Assembly (NCBI GenBank): GCA_026004435.1
Contig: BPJD01000006.1
Coordinates: 1-64,000, forward strand
Reading direction: 5' to 3'
From: Patescibacteria group bacterium
GTDB lineage: Bacteria > Patescibacteriota > Microgenomatia > UBA1406 > GWC2-37-13
DNA length: 64,000 nt
Below the pieces are notes generated by a model. It did not search any database. It was not told the DNA's origin and worked only from the letters and a program-made list of their open reading frames with translations. Shown here in pieces: positions 5,416 through 18,841 of the stretch (the first letter of the stretch is position 1; every line of letters starts with the position of its first letter). The position numbers and the translations under genes are program-made.

Positions 5416-6330
5416 TTAATCAACTATCAATTCCCTAAACTTTGACAACTCATTAACCAAAACCTTAAGCTCAGTTAAGGAGATATGCTGTTCTGCATCT
5501 GTTTTTGAGGTTCCTGCTTCAATTAAAATGCCGTCATACAAAAACTCGTCTTTAGAGATCAGCATCTTCATAGCCTTAACTGTAGCAGGCAGTATATCTG
5601 ACCTCATCTGAGGACCATAGGAATGACTCGGATCAAAAAACAGCAGACAACCTGTTCGCTGTTTTACTCTTTTGGCAATATTATGAACAGGCGCATTCCG
5701 GTATCTACCCTTCTGCGGCACATCAACACCTCTGTGAATTAAAACTGTTTTTGATTTATAATCAGCATAAGTTGCCAGCCCCTCCCAAGTTTTTTCCATT
5801 GTTGTAATTGCAGTAAACTTATTACTGTCAGCTTTCTTAAGATCCTCACCAACCCATTTAGGATTTTTCAGCCCAATCCACCAGTTATGCTTTCTGGCAA
5901 AGGCAGATGTTATAAATACAGGCCATCCCAGCTGATTTACAGCAGGATTCCAGATCAATGCCCTACTGTTGAAAATAGGTTTTTCCATACAACTTAACTG
6001 CAGAATTGGATCCATAATCTCTGTGGCAATAATAAAATGAGTCTTTTTTAAGATCTCTTCTGCCAGTTTTAATGACTCCGGATAGATTAATCTGCTTAAG
6101 TTTTTTTTATTAATGGCTTGATTTAGGTTTTTGTTAAAAGAATCAAAGTCCATACCCATACCTTCGCCTGTTTTGTCAAGCAAGGTTCTTGATTTAAGAC
6201 CAACAACACGGGTTCCCCAAATCGCAGGTTTGCTTTTTACCTTAATTCTGGAAATCTGATAAACTTCTTTTAAATTGCTTTGGTCTATAGAACAAGGACC
6301 AGCAATAAGCCTAAGAGCTTTGTTTTTCAT
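5416..6330 (-). CDS. DAHP/KDO8P-synthase superfamily aldolase (DAHP synthase-like)
   Basis: A 304-residue TIM-barrel enzyme of the family that condenses phosphoenolpyruvate with a phosphorylated aldose. Seen motifs: IAGPCSID at 9-16, RVVGLKSRT at 41-49, IHRGVD at 198-203 and FFDPSHSYG at 231-239, the last corresponding to the metal-binding DPSHATG of DAHP synthases. No ACT or chorismate-mutase domain. It overlaps the upstream PfkB kinase gene by 20 bp and is therefore in one operon with it, behind a leader with Phe-rich peptide and terminator. That regulation favours a role in aromatic synthesis over KDO or sialic-acid-type chemistry, but the sequence alone does not fix the substrate. Confidence 0.75.
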   Translation of the reverse strand: MKNKALRLIAGPCSIDQSNLKEVYQISRIKVKSKPAIWGTRVVGLKSRTLLDKTGEGMGMDFDSFNKNLNQAINKKNLSRLIYPESLKLAEEILKKTHFIIATEIMDPILQLSCMEKPIFNSRALIWNPAVNQLGWPVFITSAFARKHNWWIGLKNPKWVGEDLKKADSNKFTAITTMEKTWEGLATYADYKSKTVLIHRGVDVPQKGRYRNAPVHNIAKRVKQRTGCLLFFDPSHSYGPQMRSDILPATVKAMKMLISKDEFLYDGILIEAGTSKTDAEQHISLTELKVLVNELSKFRELIVD

Positions 6331-7258
6331 AGTAAGATTGATTTAAACTTATAAAAACCTGATTTAAGTTTAGTTGCTTAAGACTTGCTGTAAATCTGTT
6401 AATCTCAGATTTATCTGGTATTGCAGTGCTGTTGCCTTTTTTGAGGCACTGCAAAGCTGAGACTTTATTGGCAAACTCTATAGCTTGATCTAATCTTTTC
6501 TGCTCAAGCATAGCGTAACCAAAAGCTGATCTAAAAATATCTCCTGCTCCCAAAACATCTACAGGCTTTATATCAAATGCAGGAAACAGCTCAAACTGAG
6601 ACTCTTTAACCAATAAGGCTCCAAACTCTCCTAAAGTAATAATATAGTTCTTTTTTAAGAACTGTCTTAACTTGATGGCTCCAGACTCCAATCTCTGTCT
6701 GCTCCAAGCTAAGACAAACTCCCAAGGCACTATTGGGTGCTGAACCTGCTTTAGTATTAATAGGTTTTTCAATGACACATCAACAGACGGATCAAAGATA
6801 AGCAGACAACCGTTCTTTTTATAGGTAAGCACCTGATCAAAAATACCTGTCTGATGTCTGTCAAGATAAATTAAGTCAGCCTGTTGATAAATATCGGATG
6901 GCAGGTCTACCAACTTGCTTTTGACTGAGTCCTTAACAATAGTTCTGACTCCTGACCTTGACTGAACTAAAACTATATTCTTTTGTGTTTTGGACTGATA
7001 GGTTAGTTTTAGATCAATGTTGTATGTCTTAAGGTTAGACTTGATCCAGTAGCCTTCTTTATCTTTTGCCAAAGCAGTTGCAAAAACACTCCGGCACCCC
7101 ATTTTTGCAAAAAATATACTGGCGCAGGCTGAAGGACCACCGACAGAGTAAAGTACTTCCTGAGAATCGCTTTTTCCGCCAATAATTAAATTATCTTTTA
7201 ATAAGACTGTTTCATCTAAGACAACCTCGCCTATAGCCAAAACTGTTTTTTCTGCCAT
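6311..7258 (-). CDS. PfkB-family (ribokinase-like) sugar kinase
   Basis: 315 residues with the ribokinase fold: N-terminal AIGEVVLDE, the GG pair at 40-41 (VGGPSACAS), and the C-terminal signature DVLGAGD at 234-240 with the catalytic-base Asp and anion-hole Gly-Ala-Gly. It phosphorylates a sugar or sugar-like substrate with ATP; the substrate is not predictable. Its ATG follows 4 nt after the U-run region of an intrinsic terminator, so expression depends on terminator read-through. The stop overlaps the DAHP-synthase-like gene. The pairing suggests that it makes or uses the phosphorylated substrate of that aldolase (inference). Confidence 0.82.
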   Translation of the reverse strand: MAEKTVLAIGEVVLDETVLLKDNLIIGGKSDSQEVLYSVGGPSACASIFFAKMGCRSVFATALAKDKEGYWIKSNLKTYNIDLKLTYQSKTQKNIVLVQSRSGVRTIVKDSVKSKLVDLPSDIYQQADLIYLDRHQTGIFDQVLTYKKNGCLLIFDPSVDVSLKNLLILKQVQHPIVPWEFVLAWSRQRLESGAIKLRQFLKKNYIITLGEFGALLVKESQFELFPAFDIKPVDVLGAGDIFRSAFGYAMLEQKRLDQAIEFANKVSALQCLKKGNSTAIPDKSEINRFTASLKQLNLNQVFISLNQSYYEKQSS

Positions 7259-7263
7259 AAAAT

Positions 7264-7287
7264 AAAAAAACCCCGCCTGTTGCGGGG
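7264..7287 (-). terminator. Intrinsic terminator in the leader of the pfkB-like / DAHP-synthase-like operon
   Basis: On the minus-strand transcript CCCCGC (7282-7287) pairs with GCGGGG (7271-7276) around the loop AACAG, followed by seven U (7264-7270). It lies between the Phe-rich leader ORF stop and the kinase ATG. A second GCGGGG at 7318-7323 can pair with the same CCCCGC, and CUG just before it can also pair with CAG of the loop. This gives a mutually exclusive antiterminator. Confidence 0.85.
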
Positions 7288-7314
7288 TTGTTTAAAACTT
7301 AGTTTACTATAACA

Positions 7315-7383
7315 TTACCCCGCTTCAGCAGGAGTAAAGTAAAAAAAACCAAAAACAAACTCAAACACCTGATTTTTTATCAT
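7315..7383 (-). CDS. Phenylalanine-rich leader peptide of a transcription attenuator
   Basis: A 22-codon ORF from ATG 7381-7383 to TAA 7315-7317. Residues 7-16 read FEFVFGFFYF, so six Phe and one Tyr fall within ten codons. The last two sense codons (GCG GGG) are the antiterminator arm that pairs with the terminator's 5' arm. A ribosome stalled on Phe codons would leave that arm free and prevent termination, while a ribosome reaching the stop would cover it. This is the logic of the pheA and pheST leaders of enterobacteria. TATAAT at 7386-7391 lies only 2 nt from the ATG, so the transcript may instead read through from the M42 peptidase gene 14 bp upstream. Too small for usual gene finders. 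Confidence 0.75.
   Translation of the reverse strand: MIKNQVFEFVFGFFYFTPAEAG
7318..7323 (-). promoter_or_regulatory. Antiterminator arm competing with the leader terminator
   Basis: GCGGGG in the minus-strand RNA, formed by the last two sense codons of the leader ORF. It is perfectly complementary to CCCCGC at 7282-7287, the 5' arm of the terminator. A further CUG two bases upstream matches CAG in the terminator loop, extending the alternative stem across a 2x2 internal loop. Confidence 0.7.
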
Positions 7384-7385
7384 AG

Positions 7386-7391
7386 ATTATA
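7386..7391 (-). promoter_or_regulatory. Possible -10 box for the attenuated leader transcript
   Basis: TATAAT on the minus strand immediately after the M42 peptidase stop. The spacing to the leader ATG is only 2 nt, shorter than the 6 nt seen elsewhere, and no clear -35 is visible. The start site is therefore uncertain. Confidence 0.35.
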
Positions 7392-7397
7392 CTTATT

Positions 7398-8405
7398 TTA
7401 ACCAATTAATTTTTCTAAAACAACCTGAATAAAGTTAAGATAATTGGCAACAGCTGTTTTTTTAACTGTGTAAACATAGTTGTGATAACCTAAGGCAGGC
7501 AGACAAATATTGACTGCTTTTGTAAAGCCATTACCCTCAAAGTTAGACGGCTCAAGCTTGGTTATGGTCTGCTCGCTTAATACTGATTTGGAAAACTTAA
7601 CCTCGTTTTCCAGCTGGTCAAAAAACTGTCTTAATTCAAAATGAAGCAGGTACCTGCCTCCGCGGTATAACACCTGCGGCAGATCATTGGCTAACTTGTC
7701 TGACCAAAGCTCTGAACTGCTTTGCTGTTTTACAATTGGGCAGTAATCCAAGATTAAGGCATACTCTGGTTTAAACCTAACCGAGATAGAATCTGCGCTA
7801 TGATCCTCCATTTCTTCATCTGTAATAAAAGCAAACATTATTTTATTTTTCTCAAGATTCAAGCCTGACTCCAAAAGCTTCAGCATTGCAAACACAGAGA
7901 CTCTGTTATCTACAGCTGTAGCTGTTAAATACTCTGCTGACTCTGAGTAGTATTTTTCAAAGGTTCCAAAATTTCCTGTTGCTAAATCAATATTTTTGTC
8001 TAAAGGATACAAAATAAGATTATCAAAATTATCAGGAGATAATGCCTGTCTGATATTGGCTCCTGAATAAACAACAGCAGAGGTTTTTTCTCCTTTGCTT
8101 GTTTTTACCACAACAGGCATTCCTGCAAAACTGCAGCTTGAAACAGAGCCAACAGGAGCTATAGAGTAACCTTCAGAATCAATCTTTTTTACAACCTGAA
8201 AACCAACCTCATCTATATGGGCTGAAACAACAATCTTGGGATTATTGATCTCTCCTGCCAACAATACACCATAGTTATCTACAGTATAATTACTGTACTT
8301 TTTTATCTCTGATGTAATAAGCTCTCTGACCTCATCTACATCTCCTGCAACGCCAAAAGCAGTCACAAGCCTTTTTAACAAAGAAAAATCAAGATCAAAT
8401 GACAT
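7398..8405 (-). CDS. M42-family metallo-aminopeptidase
   Basis: 335 residues with the dinuclear-metal M42 pattern: AHIDEVGF at 62-69, TAVDNR at 163-168 and DEE at 196-198, the positions that supply His, bridging Asp and catalytic Glu ligands. Family members trim N-terminal residues of peptides in the cytoplasm as self-compartmentalised oligomers. The C-terminal third is divergent (fewer recognisable late ligands), so substrate and full metal set are uncertain. An AT-rich 138-bp gap separates it from the oxidoreductase genes upstream, and it may be co-transcribed with the leader of the next operon, which begins 14 bp after its stop. Confidence 0.78.
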   Translation of the reverse strand: MSFDLDFSLLKRLVTAFGVAGDVDEVRELITSEIKKYSNYTVDNYGVLLAGEINNPKIVVSAHIDEVGFQVVKKIDSEGYSIAPVGSVSSCSFAGMPVVVKTSKGEKTSAVVYSGANIRQALSPDNFDNLILYPLDKNIDLATGNFGTFEKYYSESAEYLTATAVDNRVSVFAMLKLLESGLNLEKNKIMFAFITDEEMEDHSADSISVRFKPEYALILDYCPIVKQQSSSELWSDKLANDLPQVLYRGGRYLLHFELRQFFDQLENEVKFSKSVLSEQTITKLEPSNFEGNGFTKAVNICLPALGYHNYVYTVKKTAVANYLNFIQVVLEKLIG

Positions 8406-18049: not shown

Positions 18050-18115
18050 GCCCCCGTCGTCTAGCGGCCCAAGACATCTGGTTCTCAGCCAGAAGATCAG
18101 GGGTTCGAATCCCCT
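18050..18115 (+). pseudogene. Truncated tRNA-Glu(CTC), lacks the 3' acceptor strand
   Basis: The first 66 nt are identical to the intact tRNA-Glu at 18768-18841, including anticodon loop TTCTCAG and the T-arm, with its own TATAAT at 18033-18038. After CCCCT the sequence switches to a copy of serS positions 17401 onward, so the CGGGGGC acceptor half is missing. It cannot form an acceptor stem. Confidence 0.85.
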
Positions 18116-18767: not shown

Positions 18768-18841
18768 GCCCCCGTCGTCTAGCGGCCCAAGACATCTGGT
18801 TCTCAGCCAGAAGATCAGGGGTTCGAATCCCCTCGGGGGCA
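18768..18841 (+). tRNA. tRNA-Glu (anticodon CTC)
   Basis: Acceptor stem GCCCCCG / CGGGGGC plus discriminator A; anticodon stem TCTGG / CCAGA with loop TTCTCAG giving anticodon CTC (reads GAG); T-arm AGGGGTTCGAATCCCCT. No CCA encoded. The glycosyltransferase ATG starts 5 nt after the discriminator base, so both are on one transcript. Confidence 0.92.

Follow-up and report, generated by a model that had tools for sequence, protein, structure and literature searches.

A probable aromatic amino acid attenuator ahead of a kinase-DAHP synthase operon in Patescibacteria

We analysed a stretch of 64,000 nucleotides (the window; contig BPJD01000006.1) from the genome of a Patescibacteria group bacterium, an ultra-small organism. 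It carries on its minus strand an element that very probably attenuates transcription by way of the ribosome, as in the trp and pheA systems, and that would tie entry into aromatic synthesis to the availability of charged Phe (and Tyr) tRNA. The anatomy of the element, its conservation, covariation and geometry, and its link with aromatic genes are read from sequence analysis, while its operation is described below as the mechanism that these patterns suggest.

The element opens with a leader peptide reading frame, MIKNQVFEFVFGFFYFTPAEAG (7383-7315, minus), which starts at the ATG at 7383, runs for 22 sense codons and ends with the TAA at 7317-7315. Residues 7-16 of the peptide are FEFVFGFFYF, as an earlier note on this DNA had reported with correct coordinates, and the control codons are those of Phe7, 9, 11, 13, 14 and 16 and Tyr15. 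The two final sense codons, GCG GGG (7323-7318), together with the first base of the stop codon form arm 2 (GCGGGGU, 7323-7317), the 5' arm of an antiterminator. Upstream of it lies arm 1 (CUCCUGC, 7334-7328), which is complementary to arm 2 and pairs with it in a protector hairpin with a duplex energy of -7.9 kcal/mol; a hairpin at this place is present in most, though not all, relatives. Arm 3 (AACCCCGC, 7289-7282) is common to the antiterminator (2:3) and the terminator (3:4), and arm 4 (GCGGGGUU, 7276-7269) closes the latter. The terminator stem, AACCCCGC-AACAG-GCGGGGTT, occupies 7289-7269 at a distance of 25 nt from the leader stop and is followed by a run of seven U (7270-7264), so that the whole terminator spans 7289-7264 on the minus strand. 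The ATG of the kinase gene, at 7258, lies 5 nt beyond the last U, and not 4 nt as had been noted before. The GC hairpin with its seven U and the competition of the GCG GGG arm for the 5' arm of the terminator both held up, with folds 2:3 and 3:4 excluding each other around one common arm and a U-tract. However, the earlier description recognized these two structures and missed arm 1, and the full layout in the window comprises four arms with the alternation 1:2, 2:3 and 3:4. The fold of the window leader RNA has a z-score of -3.2.

Folding of the RNA that a ribosome would leave exposed indicates how these arms may act. With the ribosome at Phe16, the exposed RNA folds into 2:3 before arm 4 exists; with the ribosome at the stop, 3:4 is the only fold left; and the free leader RNA folds into 1:2 plus 3:4. 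Once the full-length RNA is free from arm 2 onwards, 3:4 and 2:3 have nearly equal stability (-15.2 and -14.7, respectively), and switching must therefore be kinetic, as it is in known attenuators. In the proposed mechanism, leader transcription would begin a few nucleotides before the leader ATG. When Phe- and Tyr-tRNA are plentiful, the ribosome would reach the stop codon and cover arm 2, arms 3 and 4 would pair, and transcription would stop before the kinase ATG. When these tRNAs are scarce, the ribosome would stall on the Phe/Tyr run with its leading edge some 9-10 nt further, covering arm 1 and leaving arm 2 exposed; arm 2 would then pair with arm 3, no terminator would form, and the kinase and DAHP synthase genes would be transcribed. 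In the absence of translation, 1:2 and 3:4 would form, making termination the default state.

The promoter predicted by consensus scoring consists of a -35 element TTGTTT (7423-7418), a 17-bp spacer and a -10 element TAAAAT (7400-7395), spans 7395-7423 on the minus strand, overlaps the end of the upstream M42 peptidase gene and would set the transcription start some 5 nt ahead of the leader ATG. A sister genome (Patescibacteria group bacterium KatS3mg090, locus L004) has an identical TTGTTT-17-TAAAAT promoter-like site, and most relatives carry a promoter-like TTGACA-16/17-TATAAT upstream of the leader. The promoter of the window is weaker than those of its relatives, and the start site given for it is no more than a guess. 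Judged from these consensus matches, the -10 element sits at a median of 8 nt before the leader ATG, which gives a predicted 5' UTR of about 0-6 nt, and the leader mRNAs are thus predicted to be near-leaderless.

Of 72 genomes of the same family, 21 carry an orthologue of the DAHP synthase, as do 7 more genomes from the class and phylum. A reading frame rich in Phe and Tyr (sometimes also Trp) followed by a terminator lies upstream of the gene in 26 of these 28 patescibacterial loci, including members of other families of the class and phylum; it is absent at two loci (L041 and L059). The sister genome, in which the kinase is 76% identical, keeps the 22-codon frame (MVNNQLVKVNFGFYFFSPAKAG) with the same arms as the window. 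Other relatives encode leader peptides such as MSKKPFHRFYFYFYFTASGGVESYV, MSNFGLVTKKFYFYFYPTKRGEIF and MTTQKYYYFYFTCRKAEWVAMA, and distant members encode MIIQKSNFIFYFYFFSRP and MDPVLKSFFSFGFYFFRPCG. Two loci (L052 and L057) carry two leaders each, bringing the total to 28 leaders over 26 loci; the second L052 leader was found later and was left out of the coding, covariation and geometry tests, which rest on 27 leaders. An automatic scan of these loci, 243.7 kb read on both strands, requiring an ATG-initiated frame of 8-40 residues with at least 5 F/Y/W in 9 and then a terminator, returned 27 leaders, each on the coding strand upstream of a DAHP-synthase operon. The reverse strand gave none, nor did any of 540 dinucleotide shuffles, and the only known leader that it missed (L061) has a weak terminator. 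A weak similarity at G000:C2:116197 was rejected, having no leader frame with a terminator.

The aromatic run bears the signature of a coding sequence. Across the aromatic clusters of the 27 leaders, 155 of 171 codons were TTY or TAY (TTT, TTC, TAT or TAC) and none were TTR or TAR, though A is common at position 2, and frame 0 encodes 158 F/Y/W residues, the two alternative frames 56 and 47. Both patterns imply that the run was selected as codons and not as U-rich RNA. Antiterminator arms are diverse among leaders (GGCGGGGGGC, GCGGGGUA, GGAUCGG, CGGGAGG and GGGGCUUUU, for example), and each fits its own terminator arm. MAFFT alignments A1 and A3 shifted the terminator by 1-3 nt because of variable spacers, and a partner-swap test consequently replaced column-wise counting of pairs. 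The mean antiterminator energy with the own partner was -18.8, versus -13.4 (sd 0.58) with permuted partners; none of 20,000 permutations was as good, a count that is not a strict probability given that the sequences are related. The own partner beat its swaps in 26 of the 27 leaders, and the terminator stem behaved in the same way. Several distinct arm sequences, each with a matching partner, argue against shared ancestry alone as the source of this pattern. What the earlier note had proposed as checks, that the aromatic frame is kept together with the operon, that it is under constraint and that the competing stem covaries, is thus borne out by the relatives.

The footprint of a ribosome should extend about 9 nt downstream of the codon in its A site. 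In the 27 leaders, arm 2 follows the last F/Y/W codon after a median of 10 nt (interquartile range 8-11), so that it begins just past the edge of a ribosome stalled there, and the stop codon precedes the terminator by a median of 23 nt, although peptide length ranged from 15 to 35 residues. The control codons are therefore placed such that a stalled ribosome would mask arm 1 while leaving arm 2 free, and one that has reached the stop would mask arm 2.

These patterns bear on rival readings of the locus. The hairpin could be the terminator of the M42 peptidase gene, which ends just upstream (at 7398) on the same strand in an AT-rich region, with the small frame a chance U-rich stretch and the kinase promoter located elsewhere. 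However, the kinase ATG lies 5 nt past the U-run, and any promoter upstream of that run must read through the terminator; moreover, the Phe/Tyr frame and competing arm are kept where the upstream gene differs, the aromatic run is codon-selected, and the combination never arises in shuffles. Covariation, coding signature and scan largely refute this reading, which we regard as extremely unlikely. Control could alternatively be translational, with the 3' arm of the hairpin hiding the ribosome-binding site of the kinase gene until stalling in the leader frees it, and a GCGGGG that ends 12 nt before the kinase ATG is suggestive in this regard. Against it stand the T run that follows the hairpin in nearly all leaders and that termination alone needs, and a distance from terminator to next start codon that varies widely among relatives. 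As a replacement for attenuation we hold this very improbable, although transcriptional and translational levels could act together.

A terminator/antiterminator pair ahead of a biosynthetic operon would also suit a metabolite- or tRNA-binding riboswitch (a T-box or an aptamer), with the terminator as expression platform and the small frame incidental. Yet an Rfam search of the window and the loci of eight relatives found no riboswitch or T-box at the gathering score, which was reached by tRNA genes only, and no family covers the leaders in this set. Furthermore, the conserved RNA consists of the codon run and the arms, leaving no space for an aptamer, and the peptide changes its residues with the pathway, being rich in ILV before ilv and in L before leuA. 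The probability of a riboswitch is consequently slight in the extreme, and ribosome-mediated attenuation is the reading that we carry forward. In the same window, a tRNA-like sequence (18059-18115, plus), with an anticodon that reads CTC by eye, precedes the tRNA-Glu(CTC) gene at 18768 by about 650 bp; it scores 38.7 bits in Rfam without its ends, received no ARAGORN call and is possibly a broken copy or the remnant of an attachment site.

The operon that follows begins with a PfkB-family sugar kinase gene (6311-7258, minus; Pfam PF00294, 99.9 bits), the 3' end of which overlaps by 20 nt the start of a gene for a sequence-divergent class I DAHP synthase (5416-6330, minus; Pfam PF00793 at its cut-off, 25.5 bits). 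Run against the PDB, the profile of the DAHP synthase had no match at 1e-5. In relatives, gene content was read from translations, with Pfam confirming representative downstream genes; the operon partners of the synthase orthologues include chorismate mutase, prephenate dehydratase, AroB and AroA, and genes that look like those for chorismate mutase, for prephenate dehydrogenase and dehydratase, and for DHQ synthase and EPSP synthase belong to the controlled operons. Prephenate dehydratase was detected in 19 of 21 family genomes with this DAHP synthase versus 11 of 51 without it (p = 6e-8). The genome of the window encodes a chorismate synthase and, as a single fusion, prephenate dehydrogenase-dehydratase; in the genome of the leaderless family locus L041, neither prephenate dehydratase nor chorismate synthase was detected.

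The position between leader and DAHP synthase is taken by a PfkB kinase in the window and in L004, L035, L046, L048 and, by reading, L063, and a transaldolase-family gene in L044 and L047. Transaldolase matches were found in none of the 6 genomes with the kinase in this slot versus 14 of the 17 others (p = 8e-4, an approximate value among related genomes). By reading, the gene next after the kinase in L063 encodes a class-I fructose-bisphosphate aldolase. With no transaldolase in any of its six genomes, the kinase is a probable supplier of erythrose-4-phosphate, which it might make together with an aldolase via sedoheptulose bisphosphate. One study reports such a route in cellulolytic clostridia, where the phosphofructokinase is a different one (PMC7029132). 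No class-I aldolase matched in the genome of the window, where the route would consequently need a class-II aldolase. The closest solved chains to the kinase, a ribokinase and sulfofructose kinase, are not decisive.

A covariance model built from 18 leaders was run over the 72 family genomes and matched 71 of them, the weaker matches of which will include chance ones. The genome of the window itself, covered through searches and individual stretches, carries a leader MLAKGLVLVIIVLLIIP (with LVLVIIVLLII) before ilvE-ilvB (L094, 1958-2076, plus) and a leader MVLQIDNQSLALLLSAGFRR (with LALLL) before leuA, a leuC-leuD fusion and leuB (L116, 1475-1591, plus). Both have the four-arm layout of the Phe/Tyr leader, with an antiterminator arm that matches the terminator arm. 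Residue type thus tracks the pathway while the layout stays constant, as aminoacyl-tRNA sensing predicts. Other matches in this genome (L117-L119 and L121-L123) are coding or AT-rich stretches without the design and were set aside as chance, and a match on the strand opposite the leader (7302-7379, plus) is an artefact of its palindromic arms. The same genome has a leader MKSKLVLSLIVLFILVLA before a gene of unknown function and an M20 peptidase gene. Leaders rich in ILV or Phe precede an uncharacterised gene and then an M20-type peptidase gene in L095 (1948-5012), L081, L103, L107, L112 and L113, a recurring operon that possibly serves peptide or amino-acid salvage.

Elsewhere, Phe/Tyr leaders, often in tandem, precede a second type of DAHP synthase with AroB- and AroA-like genes, as well as an archaeal-type aldolase with DHQ synthase II, prephenate dehydratase, and a tRNA synthetase of the Trp/Tyr class. 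In one Patescibacteria genome (L097, 1165-2967), two such leaders stand before a DeoC/LacD-type aldolase and a 3-dehydroquinate synthase II, the pair that opens the shikimate pathway in its archaeal-type form. Tandem leaders were seen in L097, L098, L099, L100, L102, L052, L057, L083 and L091; in L083 and L091 the first is FYFYF-rich and the second Tyr-rich (YYYYELLYGGE and YYYQLLYGGV), suggesting that Phe and Tyr may be sensed sequentially. The earlier note had proposed a response to Phe-tRNA, and the leader of the window is indeed mostly Phe. However, leaders of relatives mix Phe and Tyr (FYFYF), sometimes with Trp, and for this reason we infer a signal of aromatic aminoacyl-tRNA rather than Phe-tRNA alone, with a likely response to Phe/Tyr supply.

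The mechanism of attenuation is itself well known from pheA and trp. The element shares with the pheA and pheST leaders of E. coli a Phe-rich leader peptide, the 1:2, 2:3 and 3:4 alternation and a U-tract terminator; the likeness to pheA that had been claimed earlier extends to every defining feature that sequence can address. It differs from them in controlling a kinase and DAHP synthase, in being predicted near-leaderless, in belonging to a different phylum and in having relatives that mix Phe and Tyr. The top-scoring Rfam family over the element, with a full-length match, was Phe_leader (RF01859), but at 25.6 bits versus a gathering score of 55 the element is not a member by the criterion of Rfam. 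The accessible text of a study of Corynebacterium glutamicum describes a leader peptide with Phe-Tyr-Phe before aroF, a DAHP synthase gene, and leaders before ilvBNC, leuA and trp, some without a ribosome-binding site (PMC4046766). That aroF leader belongs to a different phylum and, as described there, has a shorter aromatic run, and the same portion of the study contains no cross-species covariation analysis. Actinobacterial trp, ilv and leuS attenuators were, like ours, defined by comparative genomics as leader peptides with terminator/antiterminator triples, and differ in amino acids and phylum; aroF is unmentioned there (PMC1262725). A literature search of partial coverage, which does not prove priority, found no description of attenuators in Candidate Phyla Radiation bacteria or Patescibacteria. 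The host group, breadth and architecture of these attenuators appear new.

Taken as read from sequence, the element means that full amino-acid-responsive attenuation logic can be present in bacteria of the Candidate Phyla Radiation, most of which are uncultured and known mainly by their genomes, and that it can come in several amino-acid flavours within one 0.9-Mb genome. We lean towards the view that in this streamlined and often auxotrophic lineage much amino-acid gene control is exerted by near-leaderless attenuators (Phe/Tyr, Ile/Leu/Val and Leu, often in tandem), alongside an aromatic operon whose PfkB kinase provides erythrose-4-phosphate in place of transaldolase. A surrogate host would allow tests of the predicted near-leaderless start, the constant 10-nt spacing between control codon and arm 2, and the tandem leaders. 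Since leader peptides tell which tRNA pools the cell monitors, they make physiology and gene function readable in unculturable organisms, for example the function of the leader-bearing operons that pair an unknown gene with an M20 peptidase.
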